From positions 1 to 11,188 of the forward strand of contig QIDD01000013.1 in the NCBI GenBank assembly GCA_003230355.1: a stretch of DNA of 11,188 bases. Reading direction: 5' to 3'. Below are positions 746-4,696 of this stretch, in pieces. Under the pieces are notes generated by a model. It ran no database searches. It saw nothing but the letters and a program-made list of their open reading frames with translations, and was not told the DNA's origin. Every line of letters begins with the position of its first letter. Position 1 is the stretch's first letter. This DNA is from Methanobacteriota archaeon (GTDB taxonomy: Archaea > Hydrothermarchaeota > Hydrothermarchaeia > Hydrothermarchaeales > SZUA-236). A program made the translations under genes and the position numbers.

Positions 746-753
746 TTTATATG
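746..753 (+). promoter_or_regulatory. TATA box of the YkgJ-type gene
   Basis: TTTATATG is a good archaeal TATA element. It predicts transcription starting near 775-778. It contains the first in-frame ATG (751), so that ATG cannot be in the transcript from this promoter; the ATG at 793 is the better start, leaving a leader of roughly 15-18 bases. Confidence 0.6.
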
Positions 754-792
754 CTTCGAAAACCCCCCCATGTCACAGGTTGTGAAAATAGT

Positions 793-1509
793 ATGAAACG
801 CAGATGCCCCTACTGTAATACAGAGCTCAAAGGAAAAAAGCTTGCAAAACACCTCTCTGCGGTGCATGAGGGCGGGGGCGCAGAGTTTTACTGCCGAGAC
901 AGTTGCGTTCGCTGCTGCACAGACCCAGGCTCTCCACTTGAACTCCTCCTAGCTGACATAGAACGCATATCAAAAAGTCTCAAGATTTCAATGGCCGAAT
1001 TTTTCGAGCGCTATGGCGGCGTGCTCTGGACGAATATTCCTGGAACCGCTCTACTCATCCCAGCAACTGGCCTGCCTTTTCCATGCAAATTCCTGGTAGA
1101 TGGGAAATGCTCTATTTATGATGTGCGCCCCCTGCACTGCCGGCTCTTCCCGGAACGGCTCTACATAGCTCCTGAGCCCTGGTCCTATGAATCATTTTAC
1201 AGCGCCGGCTACGTGTGTGTTGACGCAGGACTCGGCATCCAGCCAAACCGTCGGGCCGAGCTTGAGGAGTTGATGGCTGAGGACCAAAGGGAGCTTGAGA
1301 GAACAGCCGCCTTTTTTAAAAATGAAAACTATGTTTATGAGCTAACGCCGGATCAGCTGGCTGAGGTTGAAGATGCCTTTTTGAAAATCGGTTCAAAGGA
1401 TCTTGATAGGGGTGATGCGAAGCGGCGTATACTGGATGAGATGATACCACAGGATTTCAAAGAACATGTGGGGCAGGCTTTTTTGAAGCGTCTTGGTGAG
1501 ACTTTTTGA
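793..1509 (+). CDS. YkgJ-family cysteine-cluster protein with N-terminal C2H2 zinc finger
   Basis: This 238-residue soluble protein combines two metal-binding modules. Residues 5-25 form a C2H2 finger (CPYC, 11 residues, H20, 4 residues, H25). From residue 34 comes the YkgJ / CxxCxxCC-type signature: C34-x3-C38-x2-C41-C42, then C98, C106 and C116 within FPCKFLVDGKC and CSIYDVRPLHCRLFP, the family hallmark. YkgJ proteins are thought to bind an iron-sulfur or zinc cluster; their function is generally unknown, although some relatives sit with flagellar or methyltransferase genes. The C-terminal third is charged and helical with no motif I recognise. I chose ATG 793 over the in-frame ATG at 751 because 751 lies inside the likely TATA box and the zinc finger starts right after residue 1 from 793. 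The finger suggests nucleic-acid or protein contact, which is an inference. Confidence 0.85.
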   Translation: MKRRCPYCNTELKGKKLAKHLSAVHEGGGAEFYCRDSCVRCCTDPGSPLELLLADIERISKSLKISMAEFFERYGGVLWTNIPGTALLIPATGLPFPCKFLVDGKCSIYDVRPLHCRLFPERLYIAPEPWSYESFYSAGYVCVDAGLGIQPNRRAELEELMAEDQRELERTAAFFKNENYVYELTPDQLAEVEDAFLKIGSKDLDRGDAKRRILDEMIPQDFKEHVGQAFLKRLGETF

Positions 1510-1587: not shown

Positions 1588-2394
1588 ATGAGGATTCTTC
1601 TACCAGTTCTCGTTACAACGCTCATGTTGACCGCGGCATGCACACAGCAGACCAGGACAGGCAGCGCAGAGATTGAAGAGTTCTCAGACCTATATAAAAA
1701 CGGGACGATGATAGCTGTCTGCGACCCCACACACTGTCCAGCCGGCAGATACGCTGAGATGGTTGTATCAAACCTTGAGCTGGCCGAGCCAGAGCAGGGG
1801 CGGATGCTTCGAGCAAATATTGCTACAAACGACCCCAACGTACGGGCAGTTCTCGACAAGGTTATCACAGGCGAGGTTGACGCGGGATTTGTCTATCTCA
1901 CAGACGCAATTCATGAGAACAGCTCGGTTCAGATAATCGAAATCCCCCGTGAATACACGCCTCTGCCCCAGTACGGCGCGTCAATTACCAGCTACAGCGA
2001 AAACCCTGACTCCGCCCGTCTCTTCATAAGATTTCTCACATCAAAAGAAGGTCAGGCTCTGTTGCAAAAATATGGTTTTACGCCTGGCATTCAACTGCCG
2101 GAACCATTTCAAAACACAAATAAAACAGATGAAACCCTCACAGTCTTTGCAGCCTCCTCACTTACAGAGTCATTCACAGACATTGCAAAAGAGTTTGAAA
2201 ACAAGACAGGCATTAAGGTGACAATCGGATACGCAAGCTCAGGCATACTGCGGCAGAAAATCGAGGCCGGCGCGCCTGCAGATGTCTATGCAACAGCATC
2301 GCTGCGCCATTCAGAAATACTCATGGAGCAGAATCTGATAGAAGAGGAAAGCGTATTTGCGAGAAACCACCTTGTAGTGGTGTCTCAGAGGTGA
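1588..2394 (+). CDS. modA: Circularly permuted molybdate/tungstate-binding lipoprotein, ModA-like
   Basis: This is the predicted extracytoplasmic oxyanion-binding protein of the ModABC importer, 268 residues long. Residues 1-18 (MRILLPVLVTTLMLTAAC) are a signal peptide ending in a lipobox-like Cys. What follows is ModA with its halves swapped. Residues about 29-166 match the classical C-terminal part (IAVCDPTHCPAGRYA, NVRAVLDKV, DAGFVYLTDA, and the terminal EGQALLQKYGF). Residues about 184-268 match the classical N-terminal part (LTVFAASSLTESFTDIAKEF, YASSGILRQKIEAGAPADV, FARNHLVVVSQR). A linker of about 17 residues, 167-183, joins the old C- and N-termini. The new ends fall in the loop that classically links LVVV-P to the LAVGDP strand. 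The five E. coli ModA ligand positions (S12, S39, A125, V152, Y170) correspond to S191, S218, A52, V85 and Y103, all conserved, so binding is expected to survive. Its stop codon lies within the ribosome binding site of modB. Confidence 0.9.
   Translation: MRILLPVLVTTLMLTAACTQQTRTGSAEIEEFSDLYKNGTMIAVCDPTHCPAGRYAEMVVSNLELAEPEQGRMLRANIATNDPNVRAVLDKVITGEVDAGFVYLTDAIHENSSVQIIEIPREYTPLPQYGASITSYSENPDSARLFIRFLTSKEGQALLQKYGFTPGIQLPEPFQNTNKTDETLTVFAASSLTESFTDIAKEFENKTGIKVTIGYASSGILRQKIEAGAPADVYATASLRHSEILMEQNLIEEESVFARNHLVVVSQR
2388..2394 (+). promoter_or_regulatory. Ribosome binding site of modB, overlapping the modA stop
   Basis: GAGGTGA is a strong archaeal Shine-Dalgarno sequence and includes the modA stop codon TGA. 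It sits 4 bases before TTG 2399 and 10 bases before TTG 2405, so the modB start is a TTG but which one is not settled. The ATG at 2419 is out of frame. Confidence 0.7.
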
Positions 2395-2398
2395 AAGA

Positions 2399-3184
2399 TT
2401 GGCATTGGAAGGTGACAGATGGATAAACACTTATCTCTGGATAGTGCTTTTAGCAGGAATCGTAATCTTCGCTGTTCCATTTATCGCGCTGCTTAATAAA
2501 ATCGATTTCACAAGGATGCTTACAATAATGACATATCCCCCTGTGAAGGCTTCAATAATGCTCAGTATTACAACAGCCTTTGTGGCTACTATAATCGCGC
2601 TTCTACTAGGTCTTGGAATAGCCTATATCCTGGCCTTCTGGGAGTTTCCCTTCAAAGGCGTAGTCGACACATTTTCAACTCTTCCAATGGTTCTGCCGCC
2701 CAGCGCAGCCGGCTACCTGCTGCTGCTCACATTCGGAAGATTCGGGCTTCTCGGCAGACCCGTCCTCGAGCGATTCGGAATCACAATCCTATTCACCACC
2801 TACGCGATAATCATCGCCCAGGTCTTCGTAATAACACCTTTCATAATCACAAGCACTAAATCAGCCTTTCTCGACATCAACCCAAACTATATCCGCGCCG
2901 CATCAACCCTAGGTTCAGACCCGCTTCACATCCTGCGCGAAATCGTTCTCCCCCTTTCAAGCAAAGGGATAATCGCAGGAACCATCATGGCATTTGCCCG
3001 CGCAATCGGCGAGTTCGGAGCATCAGTCATGGTCGCCGGCCTCTTGCAGACAATGCCAATCGCGATCTTCAACATGACCATGGGCGGAAGCCGCGACGAG
3101 GCAAACATCATCGCCCTCATCCTGATCGTCATATCATTCTCCATACTCTTTATATTCAAGCACTTCATAGGTGAGAGAAGATGA
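2399..3184 (+). CDS. modB: Molybdate/tungstate ABC transporter permease
   Basis: This 261-residue integral membrane protein forms the translocation channel of the ModABC importer. Several hydrophobic segments are visible (around residues 10-30, 50-80, 85-120, 135-155, 190-215 and 235-255). The family signatures are STLPMVLPPSAAGYLLLLTF and the ABC-coupling loop with LREIVLPLSSKGIIAG followed by FARAIGEFGASVMVAG (Glu205 starts EFGAS), which contacts the ATPase. This pattern is typical of ModB/CysT-like oxyanion permeases. The start is TTG 2399 or TTG 2405, set by the GAGGTGA just upstream. The gene is coupled on both sides: the modA stop lies in its ribosome binding site, and its own stop overlaps the modC ATG by 4 bases. 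Whether molybdate or tungstate is preferred cannot be read from the sequence. Confidence 0.93.
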   Translation: MALEGDRWINTYLWIVLLAGIVIFAVPFIALLNKIDFTRMLTIMTYPPVKASIMLSITTAFVATIIALLLGLGIAYILAFWEFPFKGVVDTFSTLPMVLPPSAAGYLLLLTFGRFGLLGRPVLERFGITILFTTYAIIIAQVFVITPFIITSTKSAFLDINPNYIRAASTLGSDPLHILREIVLPLSSKGIIAGTIMAFARAIGEFGASVMVAGLLQTMPIAIFNMTMGGSRDEANIIALILIVISFSILFIFKHFIGERR

Positions 3185-4254
3185 GTCTTGAGATGCGCGC
3201 CGTTTCAAAAAGCTATGACGACACCGTGGTACTGCGGGATATTTCATTCAAGCTTGAACCTGGTGAGCTGATGGTTCTATTGGGTCCGTCGGGCGCGGGT
3301 AAGTCAAAAACACTTGAAATCGCTGCAGGGATCGAAACACCGGACAAAGGTGTGGTGCTGCTCAACGGCGTGGACATGTCAGATGTGCCTGCGAGGAAGC
3401 GGGGTGTGGGATTTGTATTTCAGGATTACTCGCTTTTCCCACATAAAAATGTCTTTGAAAACATCGCCTTCGGCTTGAAGACCCGTGGTGAAAAGAATGC
3501 AAGGGAGCGTGTGGAGGCAATCGCCCGCGAGATGCAGGTTGAAGGTCTGCTTGACCGCTATCCTGATCAGATCAGCGGAGGGCAACAGCAGCGAGTGGCA
3601 CTTGCGCGCGCCCTTGTTTTTCAACCTGATCTCCTGCTTTTCGACGAGCCTTTGAGCTCGCTTGACCAGCGTGTGCGCGAGCAGCTTCGAAAAAGCCTGA
3701 AAAAGATTCAGCAAAAACACCATTTAACTACTCTTTACGTCACCCACGACTATGTGGAGGCAATAGCGCTTGCAGATAAAATTGCTATTCTCAAGCATGG
3801 AAGGATTTTGCAGACAGCAGCGCCGGATGAGATATTTTATCGTCCCCTGAGCCGTGAGGTTGCTGAGTTCACTGGGATGACAAACATCTTTAGCGGCAGT
3901 GTTCGCCAGTCCAGCGGGGGTTCGTCGATTATCAAGTTCAACGATCTTGAGCTGGTTGTTGACAGTGCTCTGCCCCTTGGCGATGTGACGGTTTGCATCA
4001 GGCCTGAGTCGATTATGTTTGTGCGGCCGGAGCGACCGTCGTCATTTGAAAACAACTTTGACGGAACCATTTCCGAGATGGAGTCTTTTGGCTCGGCCAT
4101 GCAGCGTATCGGGGTGGACGTAGGAGGCACAATGTTTTATGTTAACGTGCCGAATCACGTTGTGGAGAAGATGAAGCTTGAATCGGGTAAAGGTGTGAAG
4201 ATATCGCTGAAAAAAGAGAAGATACATATCCTGCCTGGAGCGGATAAGGAATGA
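3181..4254 (+). CDS. modC: Molybdate/tungstate ABC transporter ATP-binding protein with TOBE domain
   Basis: This 357-residue ATPase powers the importer from the cytoplasmic face. The nucleotide-binding domain has Walker A GPSGAGKS (35-42), the Q-loop at Gln81, the signature ISGGQQQRVALARAL (from 131), Walker B LLLFDEP (151-157, catalytic Glu156), the D-loop SSLD and the switch His189 in YVTHD. The residue after Walker A is Lys43, where Thr is usual; it is an uncommon choice but outside the core motif. From about residue 233 a C-terminal TOBE/MOP-like domain follows (TNIFSGSV, CIRPESIMFV, GTISEMESFGSAMQ), which in ModC proteins binds oxyanion and can inhibit transport. The ATGA overlap with modB implies translational coupling. 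The family is certain; the ModC rather than another oxyanion assignment rests on the ModA/ModB neighbours. Confidence 0.94.
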   Translation: MSLEMRAVSKSYDDTVVLRDISFKLEPGELMVLLGPSGAGKSKTLEIAAGIETPDKGVVLLNGVDMSDVPARKRGVGFVFQDYSLFPHKNVFENIAFGLKTRGEKNARERVEAIAREMQVEGLLDRYPDQISGGQQQRVALARALVFQPDLLLFDEPLSSLDQRVREQLRKSLKKIQQKHHLTTLYVTHDYVEAIALADKIAILKHGRILQTAAPDEIFYRPLSREVAEFTGMTNIFSGSVRQSSGGSSIIKFNDLELVVDSALPLGDVTVCIRPESIMFVRPERPSSFENNFDGTISEMESFGSAMQRIGVDVGGTMFYVNVPNHVVEKMKLESGKGVKISLKKEKIHILPGADKE

Positions 4255-4288: not shown

Positions 4289-4696
4289 ATGGCTAAGGAT
4301 AGTTTTCTGACTGAACGGCAGCTTGAAATATTGGAGCTGAGAAACTCAGGTAAAAGCCAGACCGAGATAGCTAAAAGCCTTGGCACAACACGGGCAAATA
4401 TTTCGGCAACAGAAAAGACGGCGCGGGGAAATATCCGAAAGGCAAAAAACACAATCAATGTTGCAAAGATGCTTTCTGCCGCGGCGATTGTACGCATCGA
4501 AAAAGACACAGATTTAAACGAGGTTCCAAAAAAGATATATGAAAAGGCTGGTGATCTGGCCATACACATAAACCTTGACTCGCCGTCACTTATCGGGACT
4601 ATCAACCGTGTTTGTGCAGACCAGATAAAAGGTAGAAGAATCATAAGCGACATTGAAATCGCGATTACAAAGGATGGAGATATAATACTGGGGTGA
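4289..4696 (+). CDS. tfx: Tfx-family DNA-binding transcriptional regulator
   Basis: This 135-residue protein matches the Tfx family. The helix-turn-helix covers about residues 7-50, with LTERQLEILELRNSGKSQ as the LuxR/sigma-like first helices and EIAKSLGTTRANISATEK as the turn and recognition helix. A C-terminal domain (about 60-135) carries the family's AHI-like core DLAIHINLDSPSLIGTI. The best studied member, Tfx of Methanothermobacter, binds downstream of the promoter of fmdECB, which encodes molybdenum formylmethanofuran dehydrogenase. Lying directly behind modABC, this copy likely links molybdate or tungstate supply to expression of Mo/W enzymes or of this operon. That role is an inference from context; no fmd gene is visible here. 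No clear ribosome binding site precedes the ATG. Its stop codon sits inside the tatC ribosome binding site. Confidence 0.88.
   Translation: MAKDSFLTERQLEILELRNSGKSQTEIAKSLGTTRANISATEKTARGNIRKAKNTINVAKMLSAAAIVRIEKDTDLNEVPKKIYEKAGDLAIHINLDSPSLIGTINRVCADQIKGRRIISDIEIAITKDGDIILG
4690..4696 (+). promoter_or_regulatory. Ribosome binding site that fixes the TTG start of tatC
   Basis: GGGGTGA ends with the tfx stop codon and lies 7 bases before TTG 4704. The next in-frame ATG (4740) has only a GGGG run too close to it, so the TTG is preferred. Confidence 0.7.

Follow-up and report, generated by a model that had tools for sequence, protein, structure and literature searches.

A circularly permuted ModA encoded in a modABC operon

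The window (the whole stretch of 11,188 nucleotides of DNA that was analysed) encodes, in a 268-residue forward frame at 1588-2394, what is very probably a circularly permuted ModA, the substrate-binding protein (SBP) of a modABC importer, which captures molybdate outside the cell: the C-terminal half of ModA comes first and the N-terminal half last. That degree of confidence applies to the account as a whole, with the mechanism and origin proposed below. The frame opens with ATG and runs without an internal stop to its stop codon. Its parts are:

1588-1641, + strand: lipoprotein-type signal sequence, residues 1-18, with a lipobox-like TAAC containing Cys18
1678-2088, + strand: ModA C-terminal half (first), residues 31-167, comprising lobe B (~31-123), the cross-over hinge (~124-127) and then part of lobe A
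2083-2133, + strand: linker between the classical C- and N-termini, residues 166-182, with the best rotation point inside it
2134-2391, + strand: ModA N-terminal half (last), residues 183-268, in lobe A and extending slightly beyond the first hinge; assigned by sequence comparison

Two halves in reversed order

NCBIfam and single-sequence PDB searches match the protein in two blocks whose order is reversed, which makes it a permuted and not a classical ModA. Positions 97-217 of the TIGR01256 modA model align with residues 37-163, and the N-terminal parts of ModA models with residues 178-266; Pfam SBP_bac_11 (PF13531) is likewise spread over two stretches, its C-terminal part lying at residues 24-165. 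The collinear N-to-C order of ModA is absent. The TIGR01256 score of 146.4 bits, in two stretches and against a curated cut-off of 62.5, establishes ModA homology over both halves. When the mature chain is shifted in five-residue steps and each rotation is scored against an HMM of 71 classical ModAs, the unrotated protein yields 139 bits over model positions 133-271, half of the model; the maximum of 255 bits spans positions 37-271, nearly all of it, and is reached at mature residue 155 (protein residue ~174), within the linker. Thus, a single rotation point restores collinearity and a linker of conserved length joins the old termini, which is the signature of circular permutation. The best identity of the rotated protein to a classical ModA is 45%.

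The uninterrupted frame with reversed halves that a sequence-only reading had described is borne out by the two-block matches and the rotation test. Its further proposal of a natural circular permutation kept as a functional gene gains support, on sequence and model grounds, from the same rotation test, the homologues, the operon, purifying selection (dN/dS = 0.21), conservation of the ligand site and a confident AlphaFold2 model. In a structure search the predicted structure resembles two-lobed binding proteins over its whole length. Its C-half matches ModA structures, the halves having been compared separately rather than in a joint superposition, and a Foldseek match to A. baumannii ModA (68 columns, 0.8 Å, 38% identity), printed without its range, probably represents the N-terminal half.

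A half-order scan covered 255 listed proteins, drawn from the top 120 matches to each of three permuted queries, and does not measure frequencies; it found 62 type-1 permuted proteins (including that of the window), 9 of type 2, 182 classical ModAs, one tandem and one fragment. The search for homologues of the same order that the earlier reading had called for also addresses its fear that an assembly artefact, or two tandem modA genes read across their junction, underlies the reversed halves. A tandem fusion of two classical ModAs does exist: P0126 (496 aa) carries them head to tail, the copies 82.5% identical over 229 residues. However, the permuted half order recurs in dozens of proteins from other assemblies, the 62 listed homologues hold a single pair of halves each, and the one tandem fusion is of classical order and distant from the permuted rows in trees. 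By the HMM measure, 56 of 58 type-1 proteins have a linker of 15-20 residues and the other two one of 25; the position of the C-terminus agrees to within two residues in 57 of the 58 (these being 58 of 65 CN rows, with P0027, P0128, P0133, P0135, P0171, P0136 and P0162 omitted). The signal sequence is fitted to the new N-terminus, and modB starts after a gap of only 4 bases. Homologues from independent genomes refute the misassembly and tandem-fragment readings, which retain practically no probability.

Hinges, predicted lipid anchor and ligand site

P. aeruginosa ModA has its two termini in lobe A, and its lobes are connected by a pair of hinges, at Gly104-Thr105 and at His209-Ile212 (PMC9171197). 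Carried over through structure and sequence alignments, with an uncertainty of a few residues, these hinges map to the window as follows:

1957-1968, + strand: second classical interlobe hinge, residues ~124-127, mapped from His209-Ile212; approximate; one full covalent cross-over
2365-2379, + strand: first classical interlobe hinge, residues ~260-264, mapped from Gly104-Thr105; approximate; 4-8 residues before the new C-terminus

By this mapping the chain begins in lobe B, passes over to lobe A a single time and terminates 4-8 residues beyond the first hinge. The cut would accordingly lie at about the first interlobe hinge and leave each lobe contiguous. The claim that the new termini fall in a loop is retained, but its placement is refined: the loop adjoins the first interlobe hinge, with the new C-terminus mapped ~4-8 residues beyond. 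The proposed linker in place of the old chain ends is found (residues 166-182). The altered connection of the hinge strands that was also proposed gains support and precision, from mapping and not from a solved structure.

The signal peptide noted earlier is present and can be specified as being of lipoprotein type: the sequence predicts a lipoprotein whose signal peptide ends in the lipobox-like TAAC18, and Cys18 is invariant in the aligned rows (51/51). The lipobox test (a Cys after a hydrophobic stretch) detects the window protein under a relaxed rule and misses it under a stricter one. The relaxed rule finds a lipobox-like Cys in 61 of 62 type-1 proteins (the exception is without its N-terminus), 71 of 182 classical ModAs and 2 of 9 type-2 proteins; the corresponding numbers under the stricter rule are 45, 59 and 0. 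With the predicted lipid anchor at Cys18 now leading into lobe B, we infer that the anchor has moved there from lobe A. Tethering was raised as a possible reason for permutation by the authors of the TpMglB-2 study (PMC4990184); extended to ModA, the notion that the protein is permuted because it is lipid-anchored is suggestive only, and the lipobox counts do not account for relatedness.

Residues S12, S39, A125, V152 and Y170 are those that we take to bind the ligand in E. coli ModA. Their equivalents, assigned by counting along an alignment to E. coli ModA 1AMF, turn out to be the five that had been proposed from the sequence:

1741-1743, + strand: A52, equivalent to A125 (Ala in 48 of 51 rows, Val in 3)
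1840-1842, + strand: V85, equivalent to V152 (51/51)
1894-1896, + strand: Y103, equivalent to Y170 (51/51)
2158-2160, + strand: S191, equivalent to S12 (Ser in 50 of 51, Gly in 1)
2239-2241, + strand: S218, equivalent to S39 (51/51)

The use of five binding residues is shared by ModA orthologues (PMC9171197). A divergent permuted branch (the Deltaproteobacteria-MAG group) has Val for Ser12 throughout its 15 aligned sequences and keeps the other four ligand positions. The 15 come from 13 loci and two listed proteins, and no more than 14 are distinct, since L117 and P0162 look like one protein; to judge by these residues, its oxyanion specificity may differ from that of other ModAs. The motif FAAAVFY replaces the Ser12 loop in L103, L109, L112-L119, L121-L124, P0136 and P0162.

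Might the window protein itself have changed its substrate and bind another oxyanion in place of molybdate? The Val-bearing branch points that way, as does 4H1X, a phosphate-binding protein that gives the closest structural match over the full length. Yet in the window protein all five ligand positions are as in E. coli ModA, the 45% identity after rotation and the 146 bits against a cut-off of 62.5 speak for the molybdate family, and its ModB groups beside ModBs that adjoin classical modAs. We consider a changed substrate very improbable. Nor is the protein a WtpA or TupA: WtpA models score far below cut-off and no TupA model matches at E <= 0.001. In genomes G000, G017 and G018, no second ModA accompanies the permuted one (A2 profile, E <= 1e-3) and the WtpA model matches the permuted protein only; a genome search for the TupB permease found a Tup-like one in each (161, 159 and 113 bits, all short of the 320 cut-off). 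WtpA-like genes are found below cut-off in G023, G024 and G094, and one above cut-off in G025. The bacterial groups were searched at a limit of 1e-20, at which a weak second ModA copy could be missed.

A permuted molybdate-binding protein would work as follows. Cys18, followed by some 12 flexible residues, would tether it to the membrane; lobe B would come first (residues ~31-123), with a single crossing to lobe A at ~124-127, and the 17-residue linker would bridge the old termini. The last strand (LVVV) would cross back and then stop, so that the second lobe contact no longer continues the chain. Molybdate would be held between A52, V85 and Y103 of lobe B and S191 and S218 of lobe A; the lobes would close, and the loaded protein would dock on ModB, as in ordinary type I importers.

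Operon, distribution and origin

The genes downstream of permuted modA in the window are:

2399-3184, + strand: modB, molybdate ABC transporter permease (TIGR02141, 180.7 bits against a cut-off of 182.6; TIGR01581, 184.2 against 210.3; both under cut-off)
3181-4254, + strand: modC, ABC transporter ATPase with TOBE domain (PF00005, PF08402), overlapping modB by 4 bases
4289-4696, + strand: Tfx-family DNA-binding regulator (TIGR00721)

Permuted modA is followed by modB and modC in 20 of 20 loci. Tfx is a regulator of a molybdenum enzyme operon, and the Tfx protein may control the mod operon of the window; in a sister family of the same order (G006, G010) classical modABC stands beside a Tfx gene, as permuted modABC does here. 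Just upstream of permuted modA, window positions 751-1509 encode a protein in which PF03692, a CxxCxxCC domain that chelates zinc or iron, is accompanied by a weak, below-cut-off zinc-finger match; an 83% identical copy of the protein occupies the same place in a genome of the same genus.

The permuted gene is present in 21 of 158 genomes in three groups, each chosen as holding a known permuted member: 3 of 23 in the phylum of the window (its own genome, one of the same genus and one of the same family), 4 of 113 in the class of a Desulfotomaculum MAG, and 14 of 22 in the class of a Deltaproteobacteria MAG, 13 of these 14 as a single open frame. A contig scan found L002, L003 and L004 permuted among the 80 loci listed, a count that is not a frequency. 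Source names among the relatives include Methanococcus aeolicus, Methanotorris igneus, Methanothermococcus sp., archaeon BMS3Abin16, Thermodesulfovibrionales, Peptococcaceae, Thermoanaerobacterales and Deltaproteobacteria. The nine type-2 proteins, also relatives, are cut ~22 residues earlier than type 1, before the first hinge.

In a tree of halves restored to classical order, a single branch (bootstrap 92, SH-aLRT 77) sets the 22 permuted rows apart, and they adjoin a classical clade starred 100/97. The same grouping, at 81, comes from a quick tree with more rows (86). P0027 (aberrant C-terminus) and P0137 (a fragment) were omitted from the trees, near-duplicates were dropped too, and the careful tree also leaves out the long rows L090, L012 and L007. 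The permease itself is not permuted, and its tree agrees: the ModB tree, which holds no type 2, unites 12 ModBs of permuted operons (type 1 and divergent branch) in one clade (95). Beside it (97) stand ModBs from a comparable classical set, found in Chloroflexi, Planctomycetes, Actinomycetes and the sister archaeal family.

These trees bear on whether permutation occurred more than once, in types 1 and 2 independently, or through fission and fusion of half genes rather than one duplication. None of three alternative groupings is rejected by the AU test: type 2 joined to the classical sister rows (p 0.093), type 1 joined to the divergent branch to the exclusion of type 2 (p 0.54), and type 1 alone (p 0.56). 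In L120 (genome G037) the permuted halves occupy adjacent open frames with a single stop between them in the linker region, which may be a split protein, read-through or an error. Against these, the best SBP trees hold all permuted rows together, and the ModB tree independently places type 1 and the divergent branch in one clade. Multiple or fission-fusion origins are unlikely on this evidence. The trees favour a single origin of the permutation, and by the AU test the two cut points may or may not share it.

On that favoured reading, a single event probably produced the permutation, accompanied by a ModB lineage of its own. The source would be a classical modABC whose clade is found today in Planctomycetes, in Actinomycetes and in a sister family from the same order as the window (by ModB also Chloroflexi). 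The route was perhaps duplication-fusion and trimming, with later spread between archaea and bacteria; tandem duplication and trimming had already been suggested from the sequence, and a tandem ModA fusion exists elsewhere on the tree. Judged by its sequence, that fusion, P0126, is a living form of the duplication-fusion intermediate, distant from the permuted group; a role as direct ancestor is unsupported. It is quite possible, though we put it forward tentatively, that the chain ends moved across the hinge within one ModA lineage: an ancestor with a copy of the hinge segment at either end (E. coli residues ~70-91) would have been trimmed in two ways. Type 1 would then have the hinge 1 strand at its C-terminus, one full covalent cross-over and a lipid anchor; type 2 would have that strand at its N-terminus, both cross-overs and mostly no lipobox. 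If true, this would be a natural series of one- and two-hinge versions of the same oxyanion trap.

Known permuted binding proteins and the value of paired ModAs

Classical ModA (TIGR01256; E. coli 1AMF, C. difficile 4KD5, P. aeruginosa 7T4Z) shares both halves, the five ligand positions and the modBC operon with the window protein; it differs in half order, termini and position of the lipid anchor and, by mapping, in having two full covalent cross-overs instead of one. Permuted type II binding proteins as such are already known. Circular permutation was found to relate OpuAC and ProX to molybdate-binding proteins and CysB in the CPSARST paper (PMC2395249). OpuAC and ProX have, like permuted ModA, a type II binding-protein fold with a permuted chain, and OpuAC aligns with the predicted window model over its length in sequence order; however, they bind another ligand, and the relation is one between families at the level of structure, with <24% identity (PMC2395249), whereas the ModA permutation lies inside one family, with up to 45% identity after rotation. 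TpMglB-2 (Tp0684, 'Type Ic') is also a natural permutation of a lipid-anchored ABC binding protein, but of the Type I / cluster B sugar-binding fold, and there permutation adds a fourth cross-over (PMC4990184), whereas in the window protein, by the mapping, it removes one full crossing.

The match 4H1X, S. pneumoniae PstS 2 (SP_2084), is 16% identical to the window protein. It aligns along its length with the chain in permuted order, and the profile match to it spans the junction; used as a single-sequence query, the junction piece failed to retrieve it. This suggests a further permuted type II binding protein, the half order being compared with the window protein. Among the literature matches listed, no paper describes 4H1X or PstS 2 as permuted. 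A permuted ModA likewise appears to be undescribed, in agreement with the earlier reading: none occurs among the matches listed, judged mostly by title and abstract, and the excerpt of PMC2861598 does not mention permutation. Permutation by duplication predicts tandem fusions and differently trimmed products (PMC3320104). Candidates for both exist among ModA proteins, in the one distant tandem and the two cut points, the tandem not being close to the permuted group.

How the two lobes are covalently joined probably influences the way in which binding proteins open, close and dock. ModA has been described as dual-hinged (PMC9171197); here the connection is rewired inside one family, at two cut points, with the ligand site kept and, in type 1, the partner permease too. 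It is a natural experiment on the hinging of two-lobed proteins, in archaea and bacteria, and with paired classical, one-hinge and two-hinge ModAs of similar sequence the roles of hinge connectivity, of anchor position and of folding order could be tested directly. There is also a warning for annotation: collinear models split a permuted ModA into two half matches, and the source names of the relatives say only molybdate-binding or molybdate transport protein. One relative, P0037, on a contig of 1,287 bases, has a PF00142 (NifH-like) stretch preceding the permuted ModA in frame, either a chimera or a real nif-mod neighbourhood; in M. thermolithotrophicus, modA in a modABC operon beside nif is strongly induced on N2 (PMC9765008).
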